From Anthostomella pinea (lineage: Eukaryota > Ascomycota > Sordariomycetes > Xylariales > Xylariaceae), in contig CAUWAG010000006.1 of the NCBI GenBank assembly GCA_963556695.1, positions 2,728,001 through 2,792,000 of the forward strand: DNA of 64,000 nucleotides. Direction: 5' to 3'. Position 1 is the first letter of the stretch. Every line of letters starts with the position of its first letter. Made by a program: the position numbers and the translations under genes. Of the stretch, positions 11,676 to 38,474 are shown piece after piece. The notes beneath the pieces were generated by a model. That model worked only from the letters and a program-made list of their open reading frames with translations, made no database searches and was not told the origin of the DNA.

Positions 11676-12049
11676 GGCTGGCAATGCGACTGGATTTATG
11701 ACTGTCTTGGAAGGGTCAATATGCAGTGGCTGGAAAACTACACGGTCTGGAAAGAAGTAGAGAGGCAGAGAGACGATGACGAAGTTGGCGCTGTGGTGGG
11801 GCAGCCCCCTCTTTACCGTTAACCATTTATTCGATGTAGGCCCCGCTATAGTAATAATTCCATCCGCGTTCTGACTCAACCGGCCAAGGGGAGAGACAAA
11901 TCAATCAGATTTCTACTCTGTCTGTAACGATTCCACGAATCCCAGGAGACTGTTTTGCACTGCCTCCAATATGGATCTATGGTAATCGAAAGCGGTATTG
12001 ACTTCACACGTGGAGTTCGTTGGTAGTCGTGGGTTGTCCACTTACCCCT

Positions 12050-12500
12050 TTTAAAGAAGACGTTTAATATAATTTAAGGTGGTTGTTATTTGTCCGCTAT
12101 CTGTTTATAAGACGCATTTTAATCTTTATTTTAATAGTATAAACTAATTTTAATAGCCTTACTTTTCGGATTGGGTTTTTTTTTTTTTTTTGGGACGGGG
12201 GGGGTTTATTAATAAAAGGTCGCTTTTAACCTTTTTAAACTTATAATTTATAATAAGAGCTTACTTTACCGTAGTAGTTTTTTGATAGTTTTTTTATAAG
12301 CCGTAGTTTTTAAATAAAGATTACAACAGTTTAATATTAGTTTTTTTTTAATAAGGTTATAAGTAAGTTCTTGGATTGTTTTTTTAAAGTTTTTATTCAT
12401 TTATACGAATTGAATATTATTAAAGGTTCTTTTAAAAGGAAGATACCGTCCGATTGTTTTAAAGATAGTAATAGCTGTTTAATATTAAACCTTAAAGCTA
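12050..12500. repeat. AT-rich, RIP-like degenerate tract
   Basis: Base composition shifts abruptly from mixed to strongly A/T-rich, with many TTTAA, TAATA and TTATTT words, a T14 run near 12177 and almost no CG-rich words. No open frame survives. This is the usual look of repeat DNA mutated by repeat-induced point mutation in Pezizomycotina. That reading is inference: I cannot compute a RIP index or identify the parent element. Confidence 0.55.
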
Positions 12501-12501
12501 G

Positions 12502-12703
12502 TGTTGGAACAGGCTTGAACGATCAATCATAATACTCGAGTATTGGGTCAAGGTCATGATGTTGCTGATGGTTGGATTGGGAAGTCTAGCTGGACCTGCA
12601 GGTCTGGCTAAGTGACCTCACAATCTGGTATCTAATCTCTTATCTAATCATACATGTGGGTTCTGTATGGACGGTTTGACTGTGGAATCACATGGATCCA
12701 ACA
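12502..12703. mobile_element. Candidate solo LTR (copia-like ends)
   Basis: A 202-bp segment begins TGTTGGA and ends TCCAACA. These are perfect 7-bp terminal inverted repeats with the TG...CA ends typical of Ty1/copia LTRs. It abuts the AT-rich tract. I see no second copy as a 3' LTR, no gag/pol frames and no matching 5-bp target duplication, so it may be a solo LTR with decayed flanks or a chance match. Confidence 0.4.
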
Positions 12704-14183
12704 ATAACCCCATTTTTCGGACCGCTCCTTCTATTTCCAGCTTGACTGGGCCAGTTCACTGCTAGCCTAAGATATTAATATTAAGCCACCATGCTAATTT
12801 GTCTCCTCTTTCTAGCTATGAGTTTCTTAATAACGCGCTCATCGGGGAAAAAGAGAAAGGCTGGAACCAAGCTACTCGATAGGGGAGCTACTTTGCTGCT
12901 TTAAGGATAAACATCATCCATACCTTCATTGGCTTGACTTCCACATACAGTTCAACACCGTGGGGGGTAGATACCCCCTTTCCCCATCTTCATCGCAAGT
13001 TGAACAGACCGAGACCAGCTAGCCGGACCTAAGTCAGACCGATACTCACATGTACAGTGATCTAATGTATCTCACACCGGTATGCAAGGTCCCGAACAAC
13101 TTAACGGATATCCACGGTGGATTGATATGGACGTGGATATCCACGTCAACTTAATCTACCGATACCCCTGCAGCTTGGGCAACTCACCAACGAGGCTATC
13201 GTGGGTTGATATTGACGTGGATATCGTGGATATTATTTTTCCTTTTTTAACTATATTAAAATATCCAAGTCATAGTGGGTCATGCCAAGGGTCATGGTGG
13301 GTCATGCCAAAGTACTTCTTATACTTTACAAAACCTTACTATTTTTAGGTATTTTTTCATATCAACGAATGTTGATCAATATCAACGGGACCCTTCTGTT
13401 GACTAACGTCAATCAACTTGATTGGGAAATTTTCAAAAAGCTTGGCAACCTACTTAACGAGACCCCTATATTTGTTAGATTTCAAAGTGTTCTATTAAGG
13501 AGAGGAATTCCAGCTACTCTGGAGCGGCCAGAATGGCCCTATATATATCCAAGATACTAAAGGAAAGGATACGTGGCCTTATATTGGCCACGTATGTGAC
13601 AGAGTCACAAATGGGGATGGTGATCCTGAAGGATGACTATGGATGGGCTAACGTAGCCCAGAATCCAACAATATTGACGTGGATTGAGTTGGTCGGGACC
13701 TTGCCGGTATGAGAGGCCGAAGCAGGAGTAGTTCCTTCCACTGTAGATATGGACTGCGCGCGGCAAAGACAGGGCGTCGCGGAGAGTGGCAAGATATGTG
13801 CGTAACTTGGCTGATGCTTACTCAATGCATCCGTGTAAGGGAGTATGATGGTATCGACTAAGACGTCAACGATTTCAGTTAGCCCGCGGTAGTGGGAGCG
13901 CAGCTCCTCCGTCCACGTGCTGGATGCGAGATCTGACTGGCGTGGTGGAGTCTGGGTTCGAGAGGGTCGATCGTAAGGTATATGTTAGGCAGGGTTTCTC
14001 AAACTTCCAGCCTCGACTCAGGGGGGGAAGTGCTGACTCCCTCGGGGAGATTGTGGTGTGGAATCCTGGTCCAGTCTGCTGTTTCTTTGTTCCCATGCCC
14101 TGGTGATTGACTCTTTGTTGAAGCGACGTTCTACATTAATCATGTGTGGAGGACATGGCGGATAACATGGCCAGTGTTGGGTA
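12704..14183. other. Repeat-derived stretch with recurrent palindromic motif; no gene
   Basis: No credible coding region. The word TTGATAT-n-GACGTGGAT occurs near 13122 and 13206, and a shorter form (ATATTGACGTGGATT) occurs at about 13671. At 13130-13147 it forms an 18-bp perfect palindrome, GACGTGGATATCCACGTC. A short direct repeat GGGTCATGCCAA occurs twice at about 13277-13312. A second ATCCAACA word lies at about 13664-13671. Together this suggests nested, decayed transposon sequence. Confidence 0.4.
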
Positions 14184-16455: not shown

Positions 16456-16770
16456 ATGCTTTTCTCAATCCTCGCCTCCGCCTTGGTGGCCCTGGGAACC
16501 CAGGTCATCGCCATCCCCTTGACGCCCCCGGAAGGCCTCCACCACGTCGACTGCCCCGACTACGACACGTACCAGACGTTCTTGACGTGCTACAGCCAAG
16601 CCGTAGTCCATAACTGCGGAGGACTGATCGGTAACCCGGTCATCGCGTGCAAGCTCAAGTGGGGCACGTCGTGCGGTACGTATCTGCTCCAGGCCGCCGT
16701 CCATGATGAACTGTTGGAGACCTTTTTTGCTAATACTTACGTCTATATAGGAAATTATACTGTTGCATGA
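16456..16770 (+). CDS. Small secreted Cys-rich protein (effector-like), copy 1
   Basis: The signal peptide MLFSILASALVALGTQVIA is followed by IPLTPPEG and a compact Cys pattern: C-x12-C-Y-x6-C-x10-C-x6-C. A candidate intron (16676-16750, 75 bp, GTACGT...TATATAG) lies directly after the fifth Cys codon (TGC G|GT). Spliced, the protein ends GNYTVA (79 aa). The intron length is a multiple of three and has no stop, so unspliced reading also gives an open 104-aa product with the same end. The intron position matches that of the paralogue at 17730. Function is unknown; secreted small Cys-rich proteins often act at the wall or on hosts, which is inference. A more distal acceptor (about 16787) is also possible. 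Confidence 0.7.
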   Translation: MLFSILASALVALGTQVIAIPLTPPEGLHHVDCPDYDTYQTFLTCYSQAVVHNCGGLIGNPVIACKLKWGTSCGTYLLQAAVHDELLETFFANTYVYIGNYTVA

Positions 16771-17729: not shown

Positions 17730-18057
17730 ATACAGCTACTTGCCCCCGTCATCCTCGCCCTCACCGCTCTAGCTGTGGCCGGCCCTTCCCAGCCACTAGG
17801 AAGAAGAGCCACTTGTGGAAGCAATTCAGCGGCATACGCAGACTGGAAAGACTGCTATACCAGTATGGCTAGCCGCTGCGATCAGTACGAGGTAAAAACC
17901 GGCTGCTTAGAAGTAAACGATCGAGTCTGCGGTATGTATCCACCCACCTCTCCTGCTCAACGAGCCAACGATCTCGATATCATACACGTAAGCACTTACT
18001 GACAGCCCGCAAGCCGAATCCATTACGCCCCCCGGAACCTGCACCTCATCATACTAA
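17730..18057 (+). pseudogene. Small secreted Cys-rich protein, copy 2; start codon reads ATA
   Basis: A signal-peptide-like frame (QLLAPVILALTALAVAGPS) leads into GRRATC and a C-x13-C-Y-x6-C-x7-C-x7-C array that parallels copy 1, including the C-Y-x6-C core. An 82-bp intron (17932-18013; GTATGT, branch-like TACTGAC, CAAG) sits after TGC G exactly as in copy 1. Exon 2 ends ESITPPGTCTSSY, supplying a sixth Cys. No ATG opens this frame: a perfect Kozak-like GCCACC precedes ATA (17730-17732) where ATG would be expected. Either the start codon was lost by a G-to-A transition, or a 5' intron ending in ATACAG hides the true start; I see no good donor for the latter. Otherwise the gene is intact. Confidence 0.6.
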
Positions 18058-19126
18058 GGGTGAGAAGAGTGCCTGCTTTGCGGGAAGTCGGGAGTTTCAA
18101 TGGCTACCGGACGACCCACGAGGCTATTCGGGGCGAGGAATGTGCTTGACCTTTTTCACATGGGGACACAGGGTCACATGAGGTTGGACGTTGGAGGCAT
18201 TGGTTGCTGGAGGCAGTGGTCGTTGGAGGCAGTGGTTCTTGGTTTCTTGATAGAGCTTACACATACCTAATGCAATGCGCACGCGGAAGCGCCTTTCTCT
18301 TCTACGACTTTCGATACGTTTGTTGCGTAAACTAAGATTAGCTGCTTCTGTTTACGTAGTTATTTACTACTCCCCTGCCACGAACCCGGTTCGGCCAGGT
18401 CTCATTGTTCATCGACTCATCGCCGCAATATTACCCTAAGAAACCGCCTACCAGAACCCGAGGACCGTCAAGACGCATCCCAAAACCCCTATCCATAAGG
18501 ACAGCTACATTCACATGTTCTGTGGCTGCGAGATTATGTCGACCAATACGGCGAGTAACTACTATCAGGTGCTTCACCATTGTGGCTCTTCGCGCGGGTG
18601 ATGAGCCTGCAACGTCGCTATGTGTAGTGGGGCCGAACAATAAAGGGGTGCACGCCAAGCTCTACAAATTGGCTAAGAACTGCTTCTAGCCTATCGAACG
18701 AGGCCTTACCCTTCAATCCTTTGATTTACTAGAGTATCGAGGCTCAAAATGCATTATCTATTTGTTAAGATCGCTTTCATCTTAGATATAATGCGGCTTT
18801 ATCTTTTCATTACTAGTCAATGACTAACATGAAGGGCGTTGGACACAGACATTGTTTGGTCATGGACAAAGACATCGCCGGATCTGACATACAAATACCC
18901 AGTGGTGCAGCGTCTATCCCGGCCCAGTCAATATTGTCCAACCCAAGAAACAAACGCAAGCTATCGTTGACCGAACCAACTCCTAGGCAAAGATTTCTGC
19001 CAAGTTACCTTTGCCATCATCTTTCCTAGGCTCAGCTTGTCGTTTACCCCTACTTTCCGTCATATCCCACACCTGTACCCTATTTTCTTTCAAGCCCACT
19101 AACAGCCACCCAACCAAGCGCTCAAG
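18058..19126. other. Intergenic; small tandem repeat
   Basis: A GGAGGCAnTGGT(T/C) unit recurs three times at about 18197-18240. A frame at 18405-18689 ends with a Lys-rich tail and two Cys, but it has no signal peptide or clear start. I do not call it. The promoter of the gene at 19127 lies at the right end. Confidence 0.45.
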
Positions 19127-20582
19127 ATGCCGTGCGATTGCCGAAAGATTACGAAGGTAGGTCTATGCCGGCACAAGGAGAGAATCGTAGAAAAGTGCGG
19201 CGTCGCCGAATTCAAGAGGAACCACTCCTGCCTGGGCGCTCTATTCCCCAAATGCCGACCTCTCAAGCGAGCGCTGCACATGAAGCGCGTCTGCAAGGTA
19301 TGCCACCAGTACTTCGCCGACCGCTTCGACGAGGAGGCCCCTCGTATCGTCAAGCAGTTCCTCGCTTACAAGGAGCTGAAAGGCTGGACCAAGGCGGCCA
19401 TGGACCCCGAGAGCATCCCCGCCGAGTGCTACCTCGACCCTAAGGAAAAGGCGCTGTGGCGCCTCAAGGGGACCCAGCCGTTCCGCGCGAAGAGCCCGAT
19501 GGCGTACAGCGGTCCGCTGGGCCCGCTGCCTCCTGTTCCGTCGTACCTTGCACCGACCCCTGATGAGGCTCAGGAGAGGTTTAAAATGCTCATGAACACC
19601 AGTGAGGACAATCTCAACAACCCCAGTGTCGAGAGCTTCGATCTTGCGGCGAGGGGAGAGTTGCCCAGCGACTACGATTACAGCCCTGAGACCAGTCATC
19701 GTAAGAAGGCCAGGACGCACAACTACCCCCCAGTTGTCGAGCATGGAACTGGTGAGATAATCGATCTGGACGACCTGGTTGATGCTGAGCCCGAGTATGT
19801 GCCGGCTCCCCAGGCCAAGGTGTCGAAGCCCGCACCGGTAGTGTACCATCAGCAGCCGCACCAAGCCCTGACGACCGAGAACCTGGCCGGCAACACCGTC
19901 CTCTACCATCCCAAGCCCAAGATTAGGGCCCTCAGACACGTCGGCCCGAAGATCGAGCAACCCGACTCAAAGGAGGAAGAGCTGTCGGAAGTCTCTCTCG
20001 TCAAGAGACTCACCCAGAACGCGGCCACGATGCGCATTGAGGGCTACGCGACCCCCGAGCCCGCCAAGGCTTTCAACCTGGAATCCGCGCCGCGCGGTCG
20101 CCGTGGCCGAACTCCCCCCCCCGGCCCCCGTAGACCGTCGCACTCCTCGCGCCCGCAGCCCCCTCGTTCCTGCCCTCCTGCGCACAGCGCCCTCAACATA
20201 CTTCGTGCACGCCTCGCACGACCGGACCTCCCCAACAGGGTCTTCAGTGCGGGGCGTCTCAGTGCCGCCCCCGCAGCGCCTCGACGGCGTCTTAGTGCCC
20301 GTGCCCGTCTGCGAAATCCACGGCGACCGCCACGATTTCGACTGCCGCGACTGTCGGGGCCACTACTTCAAGGAGGTGGGCGTGCCGTCCGACCTGCACC
20401 GGCTTGGGTGCCGCTCGACCCCGCCCCAGGTCGGGCTGGTGAGTGTCAGTACCCCCGTGAGTAAGTACTCGTGCGCCGTACAGGCCTGCTACTGCGATGG
20501 TAGTGATGACGACGACGACAAGTGTCTTTCGTGCCACGAGCGCGAGCGGCTTGGGGCCGAGATGGAGAGTGACTGGATTTGA
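19127..20582 (+). pseudogene. Cys-rich fungal protein, frame broken at a C9 run
   Basis: The N-terminus MPCDCRKITKVGLCRHKER continues with further Cys (EKCG, SCLG, PKC) and a CKVCHQYF pair, probably metal-binding. A Pro-rich, acidic middle follows. At a run of nine C (20114-20122) the frame changes. Reading eight C joins it to a downstream frame with more Cys/His pairs (VCEIHGDRHDFDCRDC; CAVQACYCDG; DKCLSCHERER) ending in TGA at 20580-20582, for about 484 aa. In the unshifted frame the protein would end at 20464 with Arg/Pro-rich text. A perfect donor and acceptor (GTGAGT...TACAG) bound an in-frame 45-nt segment at 20439-20483 that may be a short intron. The family is not recognised. The break may be a homopolymer assembly error. 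Confidence 0.6.
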
Positions 20583-21055
20583 AAGACCCTGGAGGCCGGT
20601 GAGTGAGTGAGTATCTTGGCGACCATGTCCATGTCGGCTGGTTGGTGGGTAACGGTAAGTCTTTTCGTTGAGTCTTTCTTTTTCAAATTTTCATGGTGGA
20701 GCTCGGACGAGCTATCTCTGCGTAGTTGCTTTCTCTTGTACTTGTATTGCTAGCGAGGTGCGCTGGATAGCATCCCACAATATCATAGTTGATTGATACC
20801 TTTCGAATAAGACAATATGAAATCCAACAAGTGACGGTATCTCGTAGTGGCGGTGAAGGCAAGAGATGAAGGGGGAACTACCTTCTCCTTGGCGGACAAT
20901 CATGGTCACAGATGATGAAGAGGCAAGGCGGTCTCCTGATAAGGAAACCTTGACATCATGTCCGTTCAGTTGGGGTCGCATCTCCCTGATCGGTGGCAGA
21001 AATAGGGTATATTTTATGTCCAAAAATGAAAGTCCAATAGATAGAAACAAGATCA
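20583..21055. other. Convergent 3' spacer
   Basis: This lies between the plus-strand Cys-rich gene and the minus-strand DUF3405 gene. No gene is seen. It is presumably two 3' UTRs. Confidence 0.5.
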
Positions 21056-22823
21056 CTACCTCTCCTTGACCGGGTGCAGCAGCATAGGTGGCAACGGTCG
21101 ACCCTCCTTGTACGCTTGCCATGTCTGCCCGGCAGCAGACTCCTCCCTGAACCAATAGCTCGCATCCCACCAAGGCGTTTCCACAAATCCGATCTTTGAG
21201 TAGAGCAGCGTGGAATACTCGCCTCCGGCCCTACTATGTGGCGGACCCTTGTGGATGTTGGCATCCAGTTCCTCCGCTCCGAACTGCTCGGTGAAGATGA
21301 TGGGCTGCGGGACCGCCACGGCCTTCAGCCCGTGCAGGAGGGCAAATGTTTCCAGTATGGATTCGCTGACGACCCACTGGCCTCGTTCTCGTTGGGCATC
21401 GCTCACGAGCTGTAGCAGACGTCGCGATGAGCGGGTGACGCTCACTACGGCAGCGCGTCGCGGTGTTGACAGTCCTTCCGCGAAGCCGTTGACATTGCCC
21501 TCATATATCCACTCCGTGCCCACAGGGTCGAATATGGGCATGAAGGTGATCAAGTCGGCATCTTCACCGATACCCCAATCACGTTCCGTGCGGGACGGTG
21601 GTTGAGGGCCTTTGGGAGTGAAGCCCGGACTGAGTGCTGGCCCCCAGACACCCGCGTCGCCTATCTCGGTGTCGACGGCGTCGACGAAGTTCTCGTACGA
21701 GTTGTTATGGAGAGCAGGGATGAAGAAACGTCCATTGCGCTCCCAGAGGTTACGCCGAGGTTGGGCGCGGGTAAACGTTGAGGCTGATTCCAGTGTGTCG
21801 TGGACGTGGCCTGTAAAACGCAGGTCCATCTCCAACTGCCAGACGTAGTCGTACTGTTGGAACTTCTGTGAGAATATCTGAAGTGCCTGGTACATCTGGT
21901 CTTGCGCTCTAGTAGCCCAGGAAAAGTCAGCTGATGTACTTCTGAGGGGGTACTGTTCACATATACGGACCCGTGCTCTTCGACTAGGGGATACCAAGCC
22001 TTCAATGTTCTTTCATTGAACAGAAAGGCCATCTCACGGAACTCCTCCGGGACGTAGTCCCTCATCGCTTGCTCGTAGGCAGCATCGTCTTCCTCCAGGT
22101 TGATGTCAGGGTTTTTGACGTGGACAAGGAGAAAGATCTGGTATCTTCCAACGCGCTGCAGAGAGACCTCGGCAATGAGCGCACGCAACCAGGCAAGTCT
22201 GTTGTCGGTGTACTCGTAAGTGTCCCACGACCGGAGCACAACTGCCGTTCTGCCTGTGTTCTCCGGTTGTGAGGCTTCGACTTCGGAGCCGGGCGCATCG
22301 GCAGGTTTGCGCCATGTCATGTCCATCTGGCTGTCAAGGGGTGACAACTTGTATTCCGCTGCAGCGCATCGGGTCTGTACATGGCCTACGAGGGTGTGTC
22401 AGCGAAGGGTGTGCGTTTGAACGGCAGGGTCAGAGGCTTACCCCATCTCACTTCGAACCAGTTGCGGCCGGGGATATAGTAGTATTGGTCCAGCCGGGAA
22501 CCGGGCTCAAGACATCGCCGTGGGTTCCCGAGCGCGCTGACGTCTCCCAAAAGAGGTGACAGGATGGTGTCGTCGCAATCGGTGTGATTAAGGTGGTCTT
22601 GACTGTAGTCATGGCCAGGCCAAATCTGACACGCAGCGGGTAGGGCAACATGAAGCACGGGCGACTGAACCGAAATGTCATCCGAGAGGAAGAGAAATGG
22701 GCGTGACAGCAAAAGAACCATCAATACGACAGCGGTGACTACCGTGAAACGTCGCGCAGTGATGGCTGACATGACACGACGCGGGGCATGCATAGGTATC
22801 AATGAATCGTAGTATTTGGGCAT
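21056..22823 (-). CDS. DUF3405 family type II membrane protein
   Basis: Three exons: 22442-22823, 21971-22385 and 21056-21908. Intron 1 (22386-22441, 56 bp) has a GTAAGC donor and is phase 1. Intron 2 (21909-21970, 62 bp, phase 2) has a less usual GTCCGT donor, a CTGAC branch and a CTACTAG acceptor; it joins 'LVEEHG' to 'AQDQMYQALQIF'. A signal anchor follows the short N-terminus (TVVTAVVLMVLLL). The luminal part shows the conserved VVLRSWDTYEYTDN, YQIFLLVHV, the YDYVWQLEMDLRFTGHV block and GEDADLITFMPIFDP of the family. DUF3405 proteins are fungal, probably Golgi or secretory, of unproven activity; acidic blocks such as QLEMD and GEDAD recall glycosyltransferases, which is inference. The start at MPKYYDSL is chosen; an in-frame ATG at 22979 is an alternative. 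Confidence 0.82.
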
Positions 22824-23862
22824 ATCAAATGGACGGAGGTCTGGACGGCAGGCATCTCTCCCTCTTAAAAGCTGTTCGGGCGCTGATGCGGTATTAGGGA
22901 GGCATCCTCTGGCCTTTTCTACTCGGACGGACTGACGGGGTGGAATGAAAGGTGCGTCAGCGATCAGCTGAACCGGCACAGCCTTCCTTCAGCGACCCAT
23001 CCTTACCAGAATGATAGAATCCTATCATTCCTATGGATGGTACACACATGCAGTTAAGGCAGAAGCGTACAGGCAACAAGGATTGTAACCGCTAGCATCT
23101 TTATGGGCCCATGGCCCCCACAACATCCCCTGTGTCGTATCGATGCACCTAGATGAAGCCCAAATGTACATGCTCTGAGATCTTCCATCATTGCTATTTT
23201 AACAAGTCATAGATAATGCTATGTGTAAGCACCCTAGAAGCATGTGTATTTGCGCTTCCTCCAGCTGTGTCAGTACACGTCGATAGAACTGGGGCCGTGG
23301 AGACCATAGAACCGTGCCAGCTAACCGCCAACCATGTGTTTCCCCTAAGCATGTTGGTTGTAGATATGCAGGACTGTTTGTGTAGCAGTCAGTCCTGTCG
23401 GCTCCCGATAAAGACGGCATGGACGCTGGTGCCGGGACGCACCAGCGCCTTTCGGCTACAGCTCTCATTGGACCGGCCGGGAGCTCCACAACCCATCACC
23501 GTTGCATCGGAGAGCCACCAGCATGGTCCCGCCTTGGCCCGGGCCATGCAGAGCGCATGGACAGACGCTAAGCGGGGCCGGCCAGCGGCCGGGGTGACCC
23601 TGTAGCGCTAGTTTCACAGTCTGGATGTCCCGTCGCACCTGTAGGGCCCTTGTATGCTTATTTCCACAGTTGCGGTGAGTTCAACCAACATCACCAGCAT
23701 CACAATTCGGTCAACGGTCGACGGTCGAGGGGACGGGAAAAAGCGCGGTGAGGCGCTTTATATTGCAGATATCTGCTCTGCTCTGCCCCGCGACTTGCCC
23801 GTGGACACGGGGCACGGCACCATTCATTCGTCGACTCCTGACACCGTACGACGAACGCCGCC
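22824..23862. other. Divergent promoter region with a repeat copy
   Basis: No gene seen. A 9-bp inverted repeat with a 4-nt loop (GAATGATAG...CTATCATTC, about 23010-23031) lies upstream of the DUF3405 gene. About 23456-23580 is one of two diverged copies of a GC-rich repeat (the other is near 25738). Confidence 0.45.
23456..23580. repeat. Dispersed repeat, copy A (partner near 25738)
   Basis: CTACAGCTCTCATTGG, a GCCGGGAGC word, CACAACC-ATCACCGT and GCGCATGG occur here in the same order as at 25738-25840. Substitutions are mostly transitions. The unit is not recognised. Confidence 0.6.
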
Positions 23863-24851
23863 ATGACGAACCTGGGCCCGCTCACCACCGTCTTCACGCC
23901 CAGTGGCACGGATTGCTCCTGAACCTTCATCGGTGCCAATGGGAACAACGAGTGGGCACAGTATGGTGTAGGTGGGCCCGCATCATCTGCCTGCCTGCCC
24001 AGTAGTTTTCAACCTTTCGACAATTACTTCTATTCGCCTGGGCTCTGTCCATCGGGCTATACTACTGCCTGCCAATCCCAAATTTTCATAACAACAGGCT
24101 CGACAACGCAAACGAAGGCCACTTGTTGCCCCATGTACGCACAGTCCACCATATTATCACGCGTCCTCTCCGACTCATGACAGCGAGTTGTCTTCGAAAG
24201 TTGAGGGTTGCTTTCCTACACAGTACAGTCTGCTAACCGTTGGCAAACAGCTCCTTCTCATGCCGCGATGATCGCGGCGATGATTCTTTTGCCTGCTTGT
24301 CGTGCTTTGACGGTCCCTTGACGCTGACAGTCAGCACCTATTTCTTCTCGACCAACTCGGCGGGGGCGACGACTGCGTTCCATGCGGGGACGACGACACA
24401 AGTTTGGGGGAGCCAATGCATCAGAGCCTATGGCCCAGTCATACATGCACAGGACGGAGACGTATTCGCCACCGCTTCGACTACTGTTTCGTCGTGGTCC
24501 ACCCAAAGTGACTCCAGCACGACCGCGCCCACTACGTCCGCTCCCACTACGTCGACTACGCCAACTTCAGCGGCTGACAACGAAGGGTCCAGCTCGAAGG
24601 GATTGAGCAGCGGCGTTGCAGCCGGGATTGGAGTTGGAGTGGGGTTGGGAGCAATTCTGTTGATTGGGACCATTGCATTCCTATTGATGAGGCGGCGAAA
24701 GCAAGTACCGCAGTCAGAACCCACTGCTCAAGACAAACCACCCTTCCAACCTGAGCCCAAGCCTCAACTGCATCCATGTCAGCCGCATCCATACGAGCTG
24801 TACTCGGACAGAGATCACGACAGGTCGTCACAACCCTCAGAGCTCGGGTGA
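23863..24851 (+). pseudogene. Single-pass membrane protein with Cys-rich ectodomain; in-frame TGA
   Basis: Exon 1 (23863-24134) starts MTNLGPLTTVFTPSGTDCS and is interrupted at codon 20 by TGA (23920-23922). The frame then continues TFIGANGNNEWAQYG...CLPSSFQPFDNYFYSPGLCP...CC to the splice site. Intron 24135-24250 (116 bp, GTACGC, TGCTAACC branch, ACAG; phase 2). Exon 2 (24251-24851) gives a Cys-containing region, a Ser/Thr/Pro linker, one transmembrane helix (GIGVGVGLGAILLIGTIAFLL) followed by RRRK, and a Pro-rich cytoplasmic tail. This is a common fungal architecture, resembling wall-stress sensors without a classical signal peptide; the role is not known. Only the one stop disrupts it, so a recent nonsense mutation, readthrough or base error are all possible. 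Confidence 0.7.
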
Positions 24852-25180
24852 CAGGTACATAGTGTTTGGCCATGAGATCTTTGTCGAGCGAGTTTGTTTC
24901 TTGGGTTCATTTAGAAGCATCGGCGGTTGTCTTTCTTCCAATTCCCAACCCTGAAGGCGGTCTGATTTTTAGGTGTTAATTATGGTAACTTTTGTTCATG
25001 TTGGGTTAGTAAGACTCATTAAGTGAGTAAATCTTGTACTTGTCATTTCCATTATGTCTATTGTATTCAATTCAGCTTAAATCAACCCGTTTCAGCCACG
25101 GAGCTCTCCTTCTTGACAAAATGATGATTATGACGTCTTTCCCTCTCCTCGAGGAGCGATTGCCTAGGCAGGTAGTAAAG

Positions 25181-25290
25181 CAAACGGACATCTGCTTATT
25201 TAGTCCCGGTGAAGGAACCACTGAATGCGACACACCCCCTAGACTTCGTCGTTGCTCGAACGAAGGATATAGGTTGGTTGTTGGTAGGAA
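25181..25290 (+). repeat. Diverged direct repeat, copy 1
   Basis: The series AAACGGACATCTGCTTAT, TTAGTCCCGGTGAAGGAA, ATGCGAC, CCCCCTAGACTTCGTCGT and TCGAACGAAG matches 25856-25955 (AAACGGATATCGGCTTAT, CTAGTCTCGATGAAGGAA and so on), with mainly C/T and G/A differences. Confidence 0.65.
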
Positions 25291-25737
25291 ATGTGGAACA
25301 GGCAGATGTGTGCCTAATAATAATACTGGGGCCGTGGCTGATCCCGACTCCTGCAGTCCTGTTCCTAGCAGCTCCTGGTTCCTGATACTGTGCATGATGG
25401 CTGTGCCTTCATATAGCACTGACAAAGAGACTGTTTGATAAGGCTGTAAGCACCAAGTCACCAACATATCAATTACGTGATTGAGAGAGTCAGAGCTCTG
25501 TTCTTTGGACTTGGACTTGGACCTCGGATGGCTTGCCTTATCGACACTGTAAGGGTATCGGGTATCTTGAGTATCCGAACTTGACAGCTTGAGTCTCTCG
25601 ATGGAGCGAAGGAAGGGGCACAGCTCCAGCTGGATTGATGTAGGATTCGAGTGACGCGCGCTTGAGCGGAGCCGCAATGTTGGAACTTAGGTACCTATTG
25701 AAGGGACCCACGGGTCACGGCCGGTCGACTAAGGTAC

Positions 25738-25840
25738 CTACAGCTCTCATTGGTTCAGCCGGGAGCACACAACCAATCACCGTCGCAGCGGACGCCGGAG
25801 ACCCAGCGCATGGGCGGGCTGCACCGGGCGGCTGGCAGTC
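25738..25840. repeat. Dispersed repeat, copy B (partner near 23456)
   Basis: CTACAGCTCTCATTGG, AGCCGGGAGC, ACAACCAATCACCGTC and CAGCGCATGG parallel copy A. It is immediately followed by copy 2 of the direct repeat at 25856. Confidence 0.6.
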
Positions 25841-25855
25841 TAATTATAGTAGAAA

Positions 25856-25955
25856 AAAACGGATATCGGCTTATCTAGTCTCGATGAAGGAATCGCTTAT
25901 TGCGACCATACCCCCAAGATTTCGTCATCTTTCGAACCAAGTAAATAAGGTTATA
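25856..25955 (+). repeat. Diverged direct repeat, copy 2
   Basis: Partner of 25181-25290 at about 660 bp spacing. The transition bias agrees with RIP acting on a duplicated sequence. Confidence 0.65.
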
Positions 25956-26720
25956 TTTAGGCTTGGGTTTCGAGTGGCTTGCCCTTTTGACGGACGACAC
26001 ATCGACACCCTTGAGGGTCTTTGGAGTATTGAACCTTTGGGGTCTTTTGGTTAAGGACTTACTAGAGACGCTGTCTATTGTATATTTGTATTTAACCTGG
26101 CCAGGATGACCCCGCTCCAGCATGGGCTACTCATCGCCGGTTCGCTGGCATGAGCCGCTTACTGGCCATAGGGGCATTGTTCTTTCATAATGCATTTGTG
26201 GTACCTGTTCACTCAAAGACAGGACCCCTTTCGGGGCTCTGGAACGGCGGGACAGGCTCTTTGATGTGAAGGGGTGCTTTGAGAGACCATCGCACAATGC
26301 TTGAACAATGGAATAACACTAGAGGTGATGGATTTAGGGGAAAGTGAGTGGGAGAAGTGTTTCTGGATGATGGGACTGCCATGATGAACGTGCTGTATAT
26401 GTCGATCCATATTGGCACTATTCCCAGCTACAAACCCAAGGGACGATACTGATGGAAGCTCATGGCGCTGCTTGAGCAGCTCAGCAGAGCAGGCCTCACG
26501 AACGTTGGAGCTATACATCTAGGCAGGGCGCCACGCAAGCTTAGCTGTCATCACTCAAGGAGAGGACAAACTATTTCAATGTTATGCGTTTCCGGATCAC
26601 TTAAATGCGTCCCTCCTATCATTGCAGCAGGGCTATGATGTGTCTGGGCCAAGCCTCCGTCTCAACGCCCGAGCGTTGGGAGGCATAACCATCCTAGTAC
26701 TTAGTGTTGTCCGTTATCAG

Positions 26721-28269
26721 TCAGACAGCAGCTCCCAAGACCCCAAGCACCTGGAAAGTCTGGATCAAGGGCGTCGCGTCCGCCTGCGTGATTCGGAAAC
26801 GGACCCGGCTCGTCTCGACAGTCGCGCTCAGCCTGTCGATGCGCTTATAGCCGAGAGACGTGCCTGTGATGAGTGTCTCGAATGTGCCATTTGTGATGGC
26901 GTCAATTGCATTACCCACCAATGCGCTGACCGAGAGCGATGTGTTCCTGGAGGATGAAAGCGTTGACGGTATACACGCCGCCCAGATCGACTTCCAGCCA
27001 GCCGCTCGTCTCCGAGTCGTCCATCGCCTAGTACGTATCGCCGTCGCCGTCAAGCACATTGGATGGTCCGTAAAGCGCGGAATTGCCGCCGCGAATGCTG
27101 CTCGCATTGACGGCAATGGACGACGTGAGCAGCTCGCGGTTGAGAAATGCATCACGCTGAGCCCTGAAATCCAAAAATATGTCCACGTCAGCGGCCGGGA
27201 TCTGCCCCGTCGTGTCAGGAGGGACGTCGAGCAAGAGGTTCACGCTCCGTCCCACCCAGCTCAGGTACATCTCCAACAGGGCATCGGCCGTCTTTGATGT
27301 CTCGTTGGCGTGGTAGAACCAGCCATCCCGCAGGCGCGCGTCAGCTTCGGCAGGCGTCCAGTACGTTCCGCCTCGCACCCCAGTCTGCAGCTCGCCCTCA
27401 CTGTAGCGCTCATCGTCCTGGGTCCGGTTGATGGAGTGCCAGTTCGTAGCCACCGTCCACCCGTCCTCGTTGCCGACCCAGCGGGCATCGACGCCCTGGT
27501 GGCCCCACATGACCGCGTTGGGCTGGTATTCGCGGATGATATCGCGAAACAACGTCCAGTTGAACGTCTGCACCGTGTCGGACCCGCTCGCGCCGTCGAG
27601 CCACAGCTACGACAGCTCGACGGCCGAGCCGTCGTCCAGCCGCATCGAGACCAGCTCCGTAAGCTGCTGCGCGTAGAACGCGTTGTAGTCGCCCGGGCTG
27701 TCGTCACCGAAGATCTGCGGCTCGTCGTTGGGCGTGCCGGCCAGGTGCGCCTTTGGCAACGCCGCGTCGCGGTGGATGTCCCACGGCGACAGGTAGATGC
27801 CGAAGCGAAGGCCGTGCTTCTTCGCAGAGGCGGCCGCCATGCGCGCCAAGTCGGCATCGAGGCCCTGCTCGACTCGGTCTCGTGCCCACGCCCCGCTGCC
27901 GATCTGGTATGTGGTCGTGTTCGTCTCCCATAGCGCCATGCCGTCGTGGTGTTTCGCCGTCAGGATCATGCCTGCCATGCCGGCGTCGGCGAAGGTTTTC
28001 GCCCACTGGTCTGTATCCAGCGCCGTCGGACTGAAAACATCAGGCGTGCTCTGGCTGCGCCCCCACTCTTCGTCAGTGAATGTGTTGTGCCCAAAGTGTA
28101 TGAAGGCGTAGAGTTCTAGCCGCTGCCAGTCGAGTTGTCGCCAGGACGGCGTCCGCAAGTACGTGGAGGGCGGAGCTTGAGCAAGCACCGCAGCCGCCAA
28201 CCAGCTTAGGGTGCCGATGAGCAGTATTGCCCATTGGCGGCCTGGAGAATCCCGTGCTCTTGACGGCAT
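26721..28269 (-). pseudogene. GH29 alpha-L-fucosidase, inactivated by two stops and a frameshift
   Basis: A signal peptide (AILLIGTLSWLAAAVLA) is followed by an uninterrupted GH29 fold: LYAFIHFGHNTFTDEEWG, ILTAKHHDGMALWET and GLRFGIYLSPWD. A TAG at 27607-27609 stops the frame just before LWLDGA, whose Asp is the expected catalytic nucleophile. The same frame then continues (NAVMWGHQGVDARWVG...GGTYWTPAEAD...NLLLDVPPDTTG) to a second TAG at 27028-27030, in a position that should be Trp before AMDDSETSGWLEVDLG. An extra G near 26914-26919 then shifts the frame before FETLITGTSLGYKRID and the GVLGAAV end. Repairing nothing but those sites would leave about 515 codons, full length for the family. 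So the gene is recently dead or badly sequenced. An intact homologue would be secreted and release fucose from plant or animal glycans. Confidence 0.85.
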
Positions 28270-29085
28270 CGCCGACTAACAACGGGATAGGCTGAGGCAC
28301 CTGAGAGTTGAGTATTCTGTGGTTTTAGTTTGGACTTCTCTATACCTTTACCATTTTGCAGGAGACGTGTAATAAGACTGCGAGTACAGCAACATGTCAT
28401 CAGCTCAAAGCGATGTGCCTATATGCCGTCGGAAGTATGCCCCCCTCATCTCTTTGATGCCGAGCCGGGTGGCAAACTCCTTCAGGAAGGTTGGTGGCCG
28501 AGGAGGGGCAACGAATTGTGGAGATGATTGTGGCATTTACCGTGATTCGCTTGATATACTTGCAGGTCTGCTGAGTGAAGTCCAGCAGATACAACAGCAG
28601 TGCCACGATCTCAGCTTGATGTACCTAAACTTGTACAAATGGAGGATCCAGAGTTCAGTCGGGGACTCGGGCTGTGTTCTTTGTCCGAGGTGCTGCTTTC
28701 CTTGATCAATTGCCAGGACTGGGTGGAATTTCTTCTCACCGCACATTAAGGCGCCCTTTTCAAGAGTTGTGCCCTCTGCATGTCGAGTTGAAGGTAGAGA
28801 CTTATCTTCGATGCAGACTTGGAGTGAGAATTCGGAATGCGCCAGCCACCTCCAAGTCCCTGGAACATTGAAGTATGTCAAGTTTGTGGCTGAGGCTGAG
28901 GCTGAGGCTGAGGCTTACTAAGCCACAGGCTGTCCAGATCAATGTCAGCTTCTGTTTCAGATGGACTTCCGTTTCTTTGACCCCGAACCAGCAATTCAGC
29001 AAGACCTCCAACCGCGTCGTACCAAGTGATCAGACTGGACTATCGTGATTCAATTACCTACTCATATCTGGGTAACTTCTCGATC
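28270..29085. other. Intergenic between fucosidase and F-box genes
   Basis: No gene seen. A (GAGGCT)n hexanucleotide run occurs at about 28889-28916. The region must hold the divergent promoters of both neighbours. Confidence 0.5.
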
Positions 29086-29958
29086 ATGACCCGCCTTCTT
29101 GATCTTCCTCCGGAGACCTTGATTAACACCCTGAAGTTCCTGGCTGAGGTCGACTTCTCGTGCTTGATCCGGGCGCAGTTGACCTGTCAAGCTTTCCAAA
29201 GCATCATTCGAAATATCGTGTTTGGCAGAGGGGCGGCATCTGGGAGTCCTTCAGTCCACAGTCTACTGCGGAGCAAGTTTCGCGGACTGTTCGACTCGAA
29301 AGACTGGAAAGGCTTGACCTCCCCCTATGATGGTGATCCCCGCACGCGTTTCCGCCAGTTGCCGTGGGCTGCGACAGACTCTACACGCGCTCCGTGGCTT
29401 CGGCCTGACGCGAGCTGGCGACAACTGAGCGTCACGGCTCTTCGGCTACCAATCACCCACCTCGACCTACTGAAAGCATCCTCCTCCTGGGGTCGCACAT
29501 CGTTGCACTATGCTCAAGTTGAACTTCCACCTCAAGGTCTGACAATGGGGCTGTTCTACGACCTTTTGCTCTCGGGGGCGTCGTGCGGTGGCGATATATC
29601 GTCTTGGCAGCTCGTGCTCGGCAAGAAGCTGGAGAGCTACGATGAATGGCAGCGGATGAATAATCGCGGTCTCTACGGTCCTTCAGACAACCAATTACGA
29701 TCGCTTTTCGTCGAGGACGGTAGTTCGAAGCAGTCTGCTATATTCTTTACGTCGAGTTCTTCTGGATGTGTTCTCCCGAGCTGGTCTCTCGAAGAGCTTG
29801 AGGCTCAGGCCCAGCTGTGGCAACCTCGAATCATTGGTGACCACCCACCGAAGTGTCTGCCCTGGCAGGGGACGTCGCTGAAGCCAGACACTACCTACGC
29901 TGATCAGGTATATGTGGCTGCGATGAATCCTCTTCCAGATGAGGAGGATGACCTCTAG
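29086..29958 (+). CDS. F-box domain protein
   Basis: About 290 aa from the ATG at 29086 (ATCATGACC). An upstream in-frame ATG at 29026 would add 20 residues unlike the family. An F-box motif opens the protein: LLDLPPETLINTLKFL, then LIRAQLTCQAFQSIIR. The rest, with two Trp-rich segments (RQLPWAATDSTRAPWLRP; SWRQLSVTALRLPITHLDL), is typical of single-exon fungal F-box proteins with no named substrate domain. The F-box suggests Skp1 binding in an SCF ubiquitin ligase. The acidic end PLPDEEDDL is followed by TAG. The frame is intact, unlike both neighbours. Confidence 0.8.
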   Translation: MTRLLDLPPETLINTLKFLAEVDFSCLIRAQLTCQAFQSIIRNIVFGRGAASGSPSVHSLLRSKFRGLFDSKDWKGLTSPYDGDPRTRFRQLPWAATDSTRAPWLRPDASWRQLSVTALRLPITHLDLLKASSSWGRTSLHYAQVELPPQGLTMGLFYDLLLSGASCGGDISSWQLVLGKKLESYDEWQRMNNRGLYGPSDNQLRSLFVEDGSSKQSAIFFTSSSSGCVLPSWSLEELEAQAQLWQPRIIGDHPPKCLPWQGTSLKPDTTYADQVYVAAMNPLPDEEDDL

Positions 29959-30116
29959 AGTCTGGTTGCAACAGAAGCAAAAGCCTGGGTGTCGTGTGGC
30001 TTGTCTCACATTCGGGATCAACCTTTGCTGTCTTTTCGAAAGCGGTGGTGAAGTAGATTTACCGCAGGGGCCCCAACCGCATCCCCAACGATTCCAGGAT
30101 CCTCAACCCGAACTAC

Positions 30117-31357
30117 CTAGTCAACCACCTCACAGGCTAACACGCCAACATTTGGGACCCACGAATTGTCTGCCCCGGGCCGTATCGAACGAAGGCTAGC
30201 GAGCACGCGCTCCATTGCTTGTGACACATCCAAACCGAAGGCGTTTGCTGGGAACAGCGGGATACCCGCGGAGTTGTGGGGGCAAGCATTTGTGCATTGG
30301 TCGTTGCACACATGGCCAAACCGAGGATGCGTAAACGGTCTCACCTCAACGAATCGCATACGCCCATCAGGGGCATAGAATGTGAGCGGCGGCACATATT
30401 CGCCGTCCTCTGCGCCTTTAGCGTCTGTATCGCCTCCATCGCCGTTCGAAATGACAGCAGAGGAGGCGGACAACGGCAAGGAATCGGATTCGTTCGCAGT
30501 AACACAACGTCTTATTGCTTCCGAACGAGCATAGAGATGCTTCATCATGTCCTCGCGCAGGGTGCAGCGTGCATCTGGAACCCAGTCCAGACGGTGCATA
30601 CTATAATCGATGAACCAGACCTTATCCACGCCACGAGCCCCTAACTTCCAGATTTGTTTCGCATAGTCTCGTGCGGCAAGTGAGGGGTCGTATACTATCG
30701 CCACGTGTGAGATCTTCTTCCGGTCGCAGTGTTGGGAGAGCGGCAGATAATCTTTCAGTTCTAGGATCAGGAAAAACGAATGCCCAACTTCATACTCTGC
30801 GGCTGAATGATAACGAGGTCTCGCTCGGCCTGGATACCAAAGTAGCGTGGTGCAGCCTCGGGTTCGTCCCGCATGATGAACGAGGATCCAGCGTGCCCTA
30901 GACGCCTCCGAATCCGCGCTCGAGACTCTTGACACGCGGTCCAGAGGCCTGCATCGCGGGCGTATGTCGAGGGGTTGGAGGACCTCATCCAGAGAGAACT
31001 GCATGAGGGTTCTTTGCCCATGGAACTTCTGAAAAGTTTTCCCGCCACTGAGCCAAGTTCGAGAGGGTGAAGTTGCCTGCCCGGAAGGAATTGCCCAGAG
31101 ACAATCTGCTCCACCACCGGCGACCTGTCCTCGTTACAGCATCCGCGCTCTTCATCGCGAACCGAGGCGCTGTGATATAGCGTCTCCGGGGTGTAGTATT
31201 GCCCCTCCAGATCTCCAGGAACAGGCAGACGAGGGCGTTGTTGATCCGGAAATAGTGCACGCGGCACGCCGGGGACGTCGGGGCGGATGGCAATGTCCCA
31301 GATCATGTCCCGAATCCCCTTGGGGAGCTCGCTGAAGCGAGGAAAGGTGGTAGCCAT
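30117..31357 (-). pseudogene. 2EXR domain protein, broken by three frame changes
   Basis: The start MATTFPRFSELPKGIRDMIW is a classic 2EXR opening (F-x-x-F-x-x-L-P...IRxxIW). The frame then breaks at a four-C run (plus-strand GGGG 31271-31274). The continuation CRVHYFRINNALVCL is in another frame, which breaks again near 30985-31005, where SSNPSTYARDAGLWTACQES resumes in the first frame. A third change at the T5 run (plus-strand A5, 30772-30776) leads to FFLILELKDYLPLS and a long C-terminal half with VWFIDYSMHRLDW and a Cys cluster (CNDQCTNACPHN), ending at 30117. All pieces are in order and nothing large is missing. 2EXR proteins are fungal, of unknown function. Homopolymer indels could be mutations or read errors. 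Confidence 0.75.
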
Positions 31358-32342
31358 GTTGGTAGATGGGCACTTGTGAGTAGTATTTATCATATATGAT
31401 GCTGCAAGGGAACGCTACGTCGCGTGGAGAAGTGAAGAATATATCTTCTGTGTTTTCGAATGAGACCTAGCTGAATATCAATGTTTGATGAGTCTTTTAT
31501 TCCGAGGTAGGATGAACCTGGTGTAAAGAGGCTTGCTCGAATCTGGGTGGATCCGGGGGTGAGTCAAATGTTGAATTTATTAGTAGGATAGCAAGCCAAG
31601 TTTTTCGTGCTCAGTCAAACTTTGAGTTTGGTCTCATCTGACCTGTTACCTTTTGAATCACTTGTCTCCTCCGTCCAGCCCACCTTTTTCCTTTCCAGGA
31701 CGTAAAGAAACAGCTCATGGTGAGCTTGAACTAAGGAGCCAGGCACGTACACAAGACCTTTGAAAGTCCCCACCTTACACTCGATGGCCAAGATTCTATG
31801 TATCAAGATAGTGCTAATTAATTACGGAGTGAAGGCTCTGTGATCAGCATCAAGTATAATATATTTGCACGTGAAAGCTACTTGTAGACTGCATTAACTC
31901 CCACTATATTTATGAAAAAGAGGTGCGTGGACGGAGACTTGTGAGGTGCTATCTTAAAGAGTATGTACCTACACACAGTAGCTTCACAGTCCAAACGTGG
32001 GACGTTGACGTACTCAATACTTACTCATACTCCAGTCGAACGCAGAAGGTATTCCGACATGTGACTATGCGTAACGTCGTAACAGGCCCCCGTTCCCCAG
32101 TAGCCTGATTCTCAACGCACACGAAGACATCATAGTTGCTAAGTCCCCATCGTATGGCATCATCCAGTGCGGGCAGTGCAGTAGGTGCTTGTGATAAAAG
32201 GCTTTATTGAAGGGTTGTGCTGTATTATATTGAAAAAGAGAAGACTGAGATACTGGAAAAGAGGAGACTGAGATATTGAAAAGAAAAAAACTGAGATATC
32301 TGCCTGACATCGAAACCGGCTTTCAACACGAACGCACTGCGC
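31358..32342. other. Intergenic, nothing seen
   Basis: Short frames only. A short near-repeat, GAGACTGAGATA(C/T)TG and relatives, occurs at about 32240-32300, close to the end of the minus-strand secreted gene. Confidence 0.5.
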
Positions 32343-32844
32343 TTACTTCGTACCCCAGCACGTCAAGCTCGCCGTATCGCCGATCATGCCCGGCAGGCAG
32401 AGAGCGTTGATGGACTGCGAATTGTCAGCCGCGGCTGCCTCGTCCCCGCGTGCAACCCCGTCGTATAATATCTCGAAACCGGTGTACTGGTCCTGGGCCG
32501 CCACGTCGGGCCGGCACGCGTTGCCGTTCGCGACGTCCATCAATGCCTCGGTCAGCCCCGCCTCGACTTCACCCTGCGTCGGTGAGGAACTCCGAGGCAT
32601 CAGTGCTGCAATCAAGCCGCAGCCCGTTGACGACGAAGTCGTTGCTCTGCACCGTCATGGCGTCGCGCAAGAGGTGCACCACCCATATATCGCAGGTGAG
32701 CACACCCAAGACAGGGTCGGTCCAGGTGCAGGCCGTGTCGTCTCGTGCGGCTAGGGGGGAGCCGGTGGTGGTGGAAGGGATGAGGGCGGCTTGGACGCTG
32801 GTGAGGGCCAAGACGGCCGGTGCTAGGCCGGTGGAGAGATGCAT
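32343..32844 (-). pseudogene. Secreted protein, frame broken in a GGG run
   Basis: The signal peptide MHLSTGLAPAVLALTSVQA leads into a predicted propeptide and a Cys-containing domain (DDTACTWTDPVLGVLTCD...NGLRLDCSTDASEFLTDAG), where the frame hits TGA. Dropping one G of the GGG (plus-strand CCC 32572-32574) continues smoothly as EVEAGLTEALMDVANGNAC and ends SLTCWGTK at 32343; about 166 aa. I found no intron with correct phase to bridge the two frames. The family is unknown; it is probably an extracellular small protein with about six Cys. Confidence 0.65.
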
Positions 32845-35183: not shown

Positions 35184-38100
35184 ATGAAGCAGAGATTCTC
35201 CTCTCTAGATGTCAAGGCCAGTATAACCAGTTCTGCGCCCCGTGCCTGTGTTCCTCGCGCATAGCGTTGCTGACTCGAGTCTCTCCTACAGGTCATCGCT
35301 CATGAGCTTTCCAAAAGTGTGGTATCCCTTCGACTCTCCAATATCTACGACCTCTCCTCCAAGATCCTCCTCCTAAAGTTCGCCAAGCCCGAGGTCAAGA
35401 AGCAACTCCTGATCGATTCCGGCTTCCGATGCCATCTTACCGACTTCGTGCGTACCACGGCCGCTGCCCCCTCCGTGTTTGTCCAGAAGCTGCGCAAGGC
35501 TCTCAAAACCCGTCGCGTCACCGCCATCTCGCAGATAGGAACCGACCGCATCATAGAGTTGAAGTTTAGCGATGGCCAATACAGATTATACCTGGAGTTT
35601 TTCGCTGGCGGAAACGTCATCCTGACCGACAGCGAGCTCAAGATCTTGACCCTGTTGCGCCATGTGCCCGAGGGGGAGGGCCAAGAGCCGCAGCGCCCTG
35701 GCCTAACATATTCGCTTGACAACCGCCAGAACTACGGTGGTGTCCCCGACTTGACAAAGGACCGCTTGCGAGCTGCGCTACAGACCACCGTCGACAGGAA
35801 TGCTACTTCAGTCGTGGCCGGCAAGAAAATCAAGAAGAAGCCTGGCGACGAATTAAGAAGGGGGCTTGCCACCACCATCACCGAGTTGCCTCCCATACTA
35901 GTCGACCATGCGATGAGGGTTACCGGTTTCGACTCCAAAGTACAGCCCGCAGCTGTACTAGAAAATGAGGCTCTCCTGGATCAGCTCCTACGGTCCCTCG
36001 AAGAAGCTCGGAAGATCGTCGAGGACGTGACTAGCTCTGACACGTGCAAGGGATACATATTAGCGAAAACAAGACCAGGTTCAGAGAATGTGCAAGCCGA
36101 ACCCTCCGAGGGCGAGCAGCAACCGAGGAAGGGCTTACTCTACGAGGATTTCCATCCGTTCCTACCTCGGCAGTTCGAAGAGGATTCAGCTTACACTGTC
36201 CTCACATTCGATAATTTTGATAAGATGGTGGACGAGTTCTTTTCTTCTCTCGAGGGCCAGAAGTTGGAATCACGCCTGACTGAGAGAGAAGCTGCTGCGA
36301 AGCGAAAGTTGGATGCCGCGAAGGCCGATCAAGCAAAGAGGATCGAGGGTCTGCAAGCAGCTCAGCAACTCAATATCCGGAAAGCCAATGCTATTGAAGC
36401 AAATATCGAGAGGGTCGAGGAAGCTATGGATGCCGTCAACGGGTTGATACACCAAGGCATGGACTGGGAAGATATCGGCAAACTGATTGACAGAGAGAGG
36501 CGGCGGAACAACCCAGTGGCTTCCATTATCATCCCTCCACTGAAACTTCACGAGAATACGATAACCGTACTGCTGGGTGAAGCTGAAGCCGACGAGGATG
36601 AAGACGATGAAGATGCCTACGAGACCGATTCATCCATGTCCACGGACAGTGGTTTCGCTAGCAGTGAGGCTTCTAGAGGAAAGAGCCGAGAGACCCGGCT
36701 CGCAGTCGACATCAACCTCGGCATCTCTCCCTACAGCAACGCGGAAGAGTATTACGATGAGCGAAAGACGGCTCTCGTCAAAGAGCAAAAGACTTTGCAG
36801 CAATCAGAGACTGCGCTGAAGAGCGCGGAGCAAAAGATCACGGCCGAGTTGAAGAAGGGATTGAAGCAGGAGAAACCGGTTCTTCACCCGGTTCGACGAC
36901 AACTATGGTTTGAAAAGTTTATCTGGTTCATCTCGTCCGATGGCTACCTTGTTCTTGGCGGCAAAGATGCTCATCAGAACGAGATGCTGTACAGACGGTA
37001 TCTGAAGAAGGGCGACATTTACGTGCACGCTGATCTCCACGGCGCGGCGAGCGTGGTTATCAAGAATAGCCCGAGTACGCCTGACGCCCCGATACCACCT
37101 TCAACCTTGTCCCAAGCTGGAAACCTCTCAGTCTGCTCGTCAAGTGCATGGGATTCCAAGGCAGCCATGTCGGCGTGGTGGGTCACCGCTGATCAAGTTT
37201 CCAAGTCGGCGCCTGCTGGAGAATTCCTACCTACTGGGTCCTTCATGATACGAGGAAAGAAGAACTTCTTACCTGCGGCACAGCTTGTTCTAGGGTTTGC
37301 CTTGATGTTCAAAATTAGCGAAGAGAGCAAGGCAAAGCACGTGAAGCATCGACTTTACGATGGTCCTTCAGGGACGGAACCTGCTCCAGAAGCCTCGACC
37401 TCGGCTGCCCATGCGCATCAGGAACCCGAAGACCAAGAGAGAAATGACATGGATGATGCCAGAAGTGATTCGGGAGACAGTGCGATAGATGTGCAAGAAG
37501 ATGGAGAGCCGCGAGCGAACCCTCTTCAGTCGTCAGATCACGATGACGAAGAAGACGCTGAACGAGACGCACCGGACGAGCCCGCTCCAACGGAACAAAT
37601 GCGGGACTTGGCCGTTTCGGAAGAGCCTCCCGCGTCGGACACTTCAAAGATGGAACATGATTCAGGCCTAGAGGATGATGAGGACGACGCGCAGGACACT
37701 GCAGGCAACGCAGACACGGCGCCCGCAACCACTTCCGATAACCAGGCATCCGCTGCGTCTGCCAAACAAGCGTCTCAACCGAAGAAACAACAGCCCAAGC
37801 GTGGTCAACGAGGCAAAGCCAAGAAAATCGCCGCCAAGTACAAGCACCAAGATGAGGAAGACCGCGCCGCCATCGAAGAACTCATCGGCGCTGCAGCAGG
37901 GAAGCAAAAGGCAGAAGCAGAAGCCAAAGCCAATGCAGAGCGCCAAGCACAGGTCGAAGCCACGCAGGCTCGCCGACGAGCACAGCACCAGCGGCAACAG
38001 CGGGAGATAGCGGAGCACGAAGAGGTGCGGAAGCTCATGCTTGACGAAGGCATGGAGACGCTCGACCCGGACGAGGTCGCCAGCCTCACACCTCTAGACT

Positions 38101-38474
38101 CCATCGTCGGCACGCCACTGCCCGGCGACGAGATCCTCGAGGTCATCGCCGTCTGCGCGCCCTACAGCGCCGTGGGACGGTGCAAGTACAAGGTCAAGCT
38201 GCAGCCGGGCGGGCAGAAGAAGGGCAAGGCCGTCAAGGAGATGCTCGAGTCCTGGAAGGCCGTCTCGGCCAAGAAGGGCGTCGTCGACGACCAGAGCCTC
38301 GACAAGGAGAAGATGTGGCCGAGGGAGGTCGAGCTCATCAAGGCCGTCAAGCCCGAGGATATTATTAATGTCGTCCCGGTCAAGAGTCTGAAGGTCATGG
38401 GGAGTCGTGTCGCCAGTGGAGGAGGCGCGGCTGGGAAGGGGAAGGGTGGTGCTAGGGGGAAGAAGAAGAAATAG
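35184..38474 (+). CDS. rqc2: Rqc2/Tae2 (NEMF), ribosome quality control complex subunit 2
   Basis: Exon 1 (35184-35216) encodes MKQRFSSLDVK, the invariant family start. Exon 2 begins at 35292 with VIAHELSKS, giving about 1071 aa. The 75-bp intron has a TGCTGAC branch and a CTACAG acceptor, but its donor reads AAG|GCCAGT, a GC donor. NFACT-N follows (RLSNIYDL, DSGFRCHLTDF, QIGTDRIIELKFSDGQYRLYLEFFAGGN), with the Asp-Arg pair that binds tRNA/60S in yeast. The two long coiled-coil arms lie at about residues 340-560. NFACT-R is WFEKFIWFISSDGYLVLGG...YVHADLHGAASVVIKN. An acidic, disordered stretch and Lys-rich helices precede NFACT-C (SLTPLDSIVGTPLPGDEI...KVMG) and a KKKK tail. The known role is binding stalled 60S-peptidyl-tRNA and directing CAT-tail (Ala/Thr) addition with Ltn1. 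Intact throughout. Confidence 0.95.

Follow-up and report, generated by a model that had tools for sequence, protein, structure and literature searches.

Recent pseudogenes among the accessory genes of fungi are recognisable genes in which stops, frame breaks or the loss of a start codon can be seen against intact relatives, with housekeeping genes being spared. The same picture is found in a stretch of the Anthostomella pinea F5 assembly (53.7 Mb, 16 contigs), namely C4:2728001-2792000. This stretch of 64,000 nucleotides is referred to as the window, and positions are counted from its first letter. Within it, a region of nine genes at 16-33 kb includes an alpha-L-fucosidase gene of family GH29 and several other accessory genes with apparent inactivating lesions. 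The locus shows no difference in kind from recent fungal accessory pseudogenes, apart from its lesions being known from the assembly alone. Other known systems have to be compared as well. Repeat-induced point mutation (RIP) is able to introduce stop codons into genes of fungi. Consensus errors left in Nanopore-only assemblies are reportedly addressed by Homopolish (PMC8011154). In Sordariomycetes, premature stops of the PUK1 type are corrected by adenosine-to-inosine (A-to-I) editing of the mRNA, which according to PMC11156358 favours U at position -1 and hairpin loops, and often occurs at UAG.

The region likely represents several recently inactivated accessory genes, which would have arisen through the ordinary birth and death of accessory genes across the genome, as is to be expected of a fungus of the Xylariales. 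The initial annotation had counted six of the nine genes as broken. This count was too firm: comparison with relatives indicates damage in three genes (in one of them via a single paralog), two more are probably damaged, and the gene with a run of nine C (C9) is undecided. These six genes are the following:

26724 to 28269, minus strand: GH29 alpha-L-fucosidase gene with a C-terminal carbohydrate-binding part; TAG at 27609-27607 and at 27030-27028; frame broken at about 26914
23863 to 24851, plus strand: gene of a four-member family with an in-frame TGA at 23920-23922, compared with the intact paralog L042
17730 to 17933, plus strand: small secreted-protein gene, exon 1 without a start codon (ATA at 17730-17732), compared with the paralog L047
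30117 to 31357, minus strand: 2EXR gene in which a single frame break, at about 30770-30820, is credible, judged from PF20150 and coding scores
32343 to 32844, minus strand: small secreted-protein-like gene, its frame probably broken near 32575, judged from a coding score that changes frame and a lax scan
19127 to 20582, plus strand: apparent orphan gene with a change of frame after about 20114 (C9 run at 20114-20122); the lesion is not demonstrable

In the GH29 gene, read from 28269 to 26724, the family PF01120 (Pfam) flanks the first TAG on both sides. Alignment by tblastn with four relatives is collinear over nearly the whole gene in all four cases, with small gaps in two of them, and the sole disabling changes are the two TAG codons and the frame break at about 26914. 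Both stops fall on alignment columns that are invariant in 119 of 119 relatives, and the combination of two stops and a frame lesion described in the initial annotation is thereby upheld. At the 101 other invariant columns the gene deviates only once (at most one deviation is found in 113 of the 119 relatives, as assessed by leave-one-out), and the count is three at the 169 columns with 95% conservation (three or fewer in 101 of 119). The lesions are thus confirmed in the assembly sequence, in a gene that is otherwise full length and nearly undecayed. Little decay besides the lesions, a mark of recent pseudogenes, was found for this gene only. The near-absence of decay implies that the gene either was lost very recently or is the victim of assembly error. 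When the stops are set against the missense changes, no departure from the neutral expectation is observed (p = 0.10 and 0.12).

The public annotation treats this gene differently. A GH29 piece matches an annotated A. pinea protein at 98% identity, and the annotated product P0001 contains a 24-base GT-AG "intron" at 27587-27610, which deletes the first stop together with a conserved LWLDG-type stretch. The model of P0001 terminates immediately before the second stop. Further GH29 sequences are present on other contigs. A copy on contig C9 (L013) contains a TAA that is probably intronic and was left out of the lesion count. On C5, a short match (L016, C5:1437437-1437571) has GH29-like pieces nearby in more than one frame and is perhaps the remnant of another broken copy.

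The first GH29 TAG lies in the six-base loop of an inverted repeat at 27592-27624 (minus strand), which as RNA folds with -24.5 kcal/mol per 41 bases. An equally strong hairpin occurs in only 2 of 4000 windows matched for guanine-cytosine (GC) content. Mutations or consensus errors might arise more easily in such a structure. It also resembles the PUK1 type of stop correction, as the UAG lies in a hairpin loop with U at -1. The first GH29 stop could accordingly be imagined as a site of A-to-I editing at the tip of a very strong mRNA hairpin, with some of the apparent pseudogenes being stage-specific genes, but this proposal is very improbable. Editing of this stop would not restore the residue that all 119 relatives share, and the frame break in the same gene is not editable. 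The more general idea, in which editing corrects some of the stops and the genes are conditional rather than dead, is equally far-fetched. The ATA at 17730 lies in a predicted loop in three of three fold sizes. Predicted hairpin loops, however, also contain 804 of 1500 TA sites chosen at random, only one of three fold sizes places the second GH29 TAG in a loop, and the A of the TGA at 23920 has no preceding U. No evidence of editing in A. pinea was seen.

The second gene with a relative as witness starts at 23.8 kb. Its TGA at 23920 is in frame within exon 1, and the paralog L042 on C5 is open across the same place, which confirms the lesion named in the initial annotation. However, downstream of the TGA every frame scores negative for coding (best -10.1 for a 216-base piece, best -17.9 for exon 2), which is unlike a normal coding gene. 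Searching with the part beyond the TGA retrieves three more family members in the genome, and a search from the intact L042 returns the same four. In L043, a paralog on C5, exon 1 contains an in-frame TAG; in L044, a paralog on C16, there is an in-frame TGA that is probably genuine. An in-frame stop is therefore found in three of the four members of the family, on three contigs, with the stop of L044 being probable only.

At 17730, an ATA heads a stretch that resembles a signal peptide. A single paralog was found, L047 on C3 (49% identity). Its start codon aligns with this ATA, and an in-frame TAA cuts through L047 itself. The exon of the 17.7-kb gene has a negative coding score in all frames (best -8.3), and the case for a lost start, as proposed in the initial annotation, thus rests on this one paralog. 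Among the same-family copies elsewhere, L043, L044 and L047 are interrupted and L042 alone is intact.

For the 2EXR gene, three indels had been claimed. A single open reading frame containing 31357-30797 spans positions 1-92 of the 94 positions of PF20150 (Pfam), and two of the three indels are unneeded because one open frame covers the domain. The 2EXR family tolerates long inserts. Beyond about 30800 the coding signal shifts to another frame (+26.8 for 30120-30692), which makes a single frame break in the stretch of about 30770-30820 credible. The annotation crosses the change of frame with a 101-base intron at 30695-30795, which has a low splice score of 0.3. For the C-terminal piece no paralog was found in the genome, and the piece 30117-31028 retrieved only its own annotated product among about 5.8 billion proteins searched.

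The frame break in the 32.3-kb gene is probable, supported by coding potential rather than proven. The 5' piece scores +22.4 in one frame and the 3' piece +14.0 in another, and the lax scan described below places a frame event at 32577. No paralog of this gene was found in the genome. The lesion previously placed at 32572 is supported to this extent.

The C9 run at 20114 is present in the sequence and is one of three G/C runs of at least nine bases in 264 kb. The annotated product departs from the first frame after 20129 via a 58-base intron with 72% GC and re-enters another frame at 20188. The splice score of this intron is -2.1, compared with a 5th percentile of 0.14 among 59 introns of strong predicted genes, which were picked by the same scoring. 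Both a poor intron and a frame break in the homopolymer are possible explanations. A protein search at E <= 0.001 returned only the gene's own annotated product among the matches listed (best 7989 candidates). The pieces 19127-20582 and 30117-31028 are thus apparent orphans, as judged on the search of about 5.8 billion proteins. The C9 run cited in the initial annotation is real, but a lesion in this orphan gene is not demonstrable, as the annotated product crosses the site by way of the poor intron.

The sequencing strategy raises the question whether most of the lesions are consensus errors. The F5 isolate originates from a lichen thallus. Its genome was read with Nanopore Q20 chemistry to a depth of about 80x; Flye was used for the assembly, and Racon and Medaka for polishing (PMC10763133). 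The reads are deposited as PRJEB67537. The main text of the genome paper mentions neither Illumina nor PacBio (PMC10763133), and no short-read polishing is reported. Single-base indels are suspect because the assembly is Nanopore-only and Racon/Medaka-polished. Consensus error as the source of most lesions is unlikely, but it remains the most serious competitor of recent gene inactivation. It would fit the long homopolymer at 20114, the almost undecayed state of GH29 beside its lesions, and the position of the first GH29 stop in an extreme hairpin loop, where consensus calling might fail. On the other hand, no run of more than five bases lies within 25 bases of three of the four frame breaks, a long homopolymer being found at C9 only, and four lesions are substitutions. 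BUSCO completeness of the assembly is 97.9% (PMC10763133). The initial annotation had argued that error should strike housekeeping genes equally. This argument is fair and speaks against error as the main cause. No stop or frame event was detected by the gene finder in the eight scored genes outside 16-33 kb.

The genes of the region without lesions, and a control outside it, are as follows:

16456 to 16770, plus strand: small secreted-protein gene, one intron at about 16676-16750, intact; open frame from ATG, intron from the gene finder
21056 to 22721, minus strand: DUF3405 gene with two introns, intact; PF11885 on both sides of an intron
29086 to 29958, plus strand: F-box gene, intact; PF00646 at cut-off, open frame
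35274 to 38474, plus strand: RQC2/NFACT gene, control, intact, 1066 open codons; PF05670, PF11923 and PF05833 in one frame

The 16.4-kb gene has a signal-peptide-like start and a coding score of +12.4 for exon 1; no Pfam family was found for it. The absence of lesions from rqc2, as initially annotated, agrees with its 1066 open codons and with three Pfam domains in one frame. The same had been stated for a gene named DUF8035. Its 940-codon frame at 55631-58453 is indeed open, but it has no Pfam match and the family name is unconfirmed.

The gene finder was trained on the A. pinea genome and tolerated frame shifts and in-frame stops against a penalty, with a strict and a lax setting. It was applied to the window and to twenty 10-kb stretches (200 kb) of contig C2. 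The 16.4-, 17.7- and 23.8-kb genes were left unscored, so that its counts cover six of the nine genes of the region. In the strict scan, one of 14 window genes (GH29) had an event, compared with one of 47 genes in the C2 sample. In the lax scan, these numbers were 3 of 14, all three within 16-33 kb, and 11 of 49. The lax setting yields false events, such as paired opposite shifts within one gene, and several of its calls are probably false. The C2 listing holds 20 events, not all of which were profile-scanned on both sides, and L027, L031 and L038 are outside the C2 count, as overlapping calls on the other strand win. When 20 pieces beside candidate events in C2 were compared with Pfam, families were found only in the two pieces flanking the stop of L032. 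In this enzyme gene, positions 58-103 of NAD_binding_4 end just before an in-frame TAG (L032:538-540, C2:3615538-3615540), and positions 108-258 start just after it, so that the profile independently confirms this one C2 candidate.

These data bear on whether selection on the cluster was relaxed in one episode, either local or linked to lifestyle. Set against the other genes of the window, the region does stand out, although the difference falls just short of significance (3/6 versus 0/8 in the lax scan, Fisher p = 0.055). Compared with C2 there is no significant excess (lax 3/6 versus 11/49, p = 0.17; strict 1/6 versus 1/47, p = 0.22; Fisher), in a like-for-like comparison of low power that is not a census. 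Similar damage is found on C2, C3, C5 and C16, and the DUF3405, F-box and 16.4-kb genes are intact inside the cluster. Because paralogs and an unrelated enzyme are broken on other contigs, and because the region does not stand out significantly from C2, such an episode is unsupported and considered improbable. Of the recent relaxed selection proposed in the initial annotation, the part that holds is that accessory genes were apparently inactivated recently and that the other scored genes were spared; the special cluster and the change of host or lifestyle do not. A literature search found no paper combining Xylariales, pseudogene and relaxed selection.

Two further measures of lesions across the genome were tried and dropped. 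Family scans gave rows with stops, counted by eye, for HET (35/150), 2EXR (8/100) and protein kinases (20/139), but introns also place stops inside matches and the measure was abandoned for this reason. HSP70 was considered as a housekeeping control. Stops were present in 9 of 21 rows and were judged to be exon edges by spacing only, which makes this control unclean.

RIP was rejected as a cause. The mean composite RIP index in 16-33 kb is -0.44, equal to the mean of the C2 sample, and the combination of a raised TpA/ApT ratio with a positive composite index, which RIP would leave, is absent. The region differs from RIP-affected sequence in lacking a RIP signature, and its genes lie outside repeats as far as tested. 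Elsewhere in the window, 12001-13000 is an AT-rich kilobase with 36% GC, compared with 46-64% GC in the rest, and the 2-kb bin containing it is one of two window bins with a positive composite RIP index.

Gene inactivation by ordinary birth and death would proceed in simple steps. A dispensable gene would acquire a nonsense or frame-breaking mutation, selection would leave this mutation in place, and further lesions could then accumulate, while equivalent mutations would be purged from housekeeping genes. The lesions would accordingly be carried by the DNA rather than by the assembly alone, and we infer that the affected genes are functionless. Several points weigh against this explanation. 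Consensus error is possible at every lesion, as the lesions are known from the assembly sequence alone. Few missense changes accompany the three lesions of GH29, and an artefact would look alike. The stop of L044 is possibly bypassed by a very short intron. The near-significant contrast within the window would favour a local cause, and the false calls of the lax scan weaken the comparison with C2.

The public annotation masks lesions such as those in GH29, where a 24-base "intron" stands in place of the first stop. Catalogues of carbohydrate-active enzymes (CAZymes) or secreted proteins derived from such assemblies may count broken genes as live. If its lesions are borne out by the reads, the GH29 copy of A. 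pinea would represent a clean case of inactivation at a very early stage.

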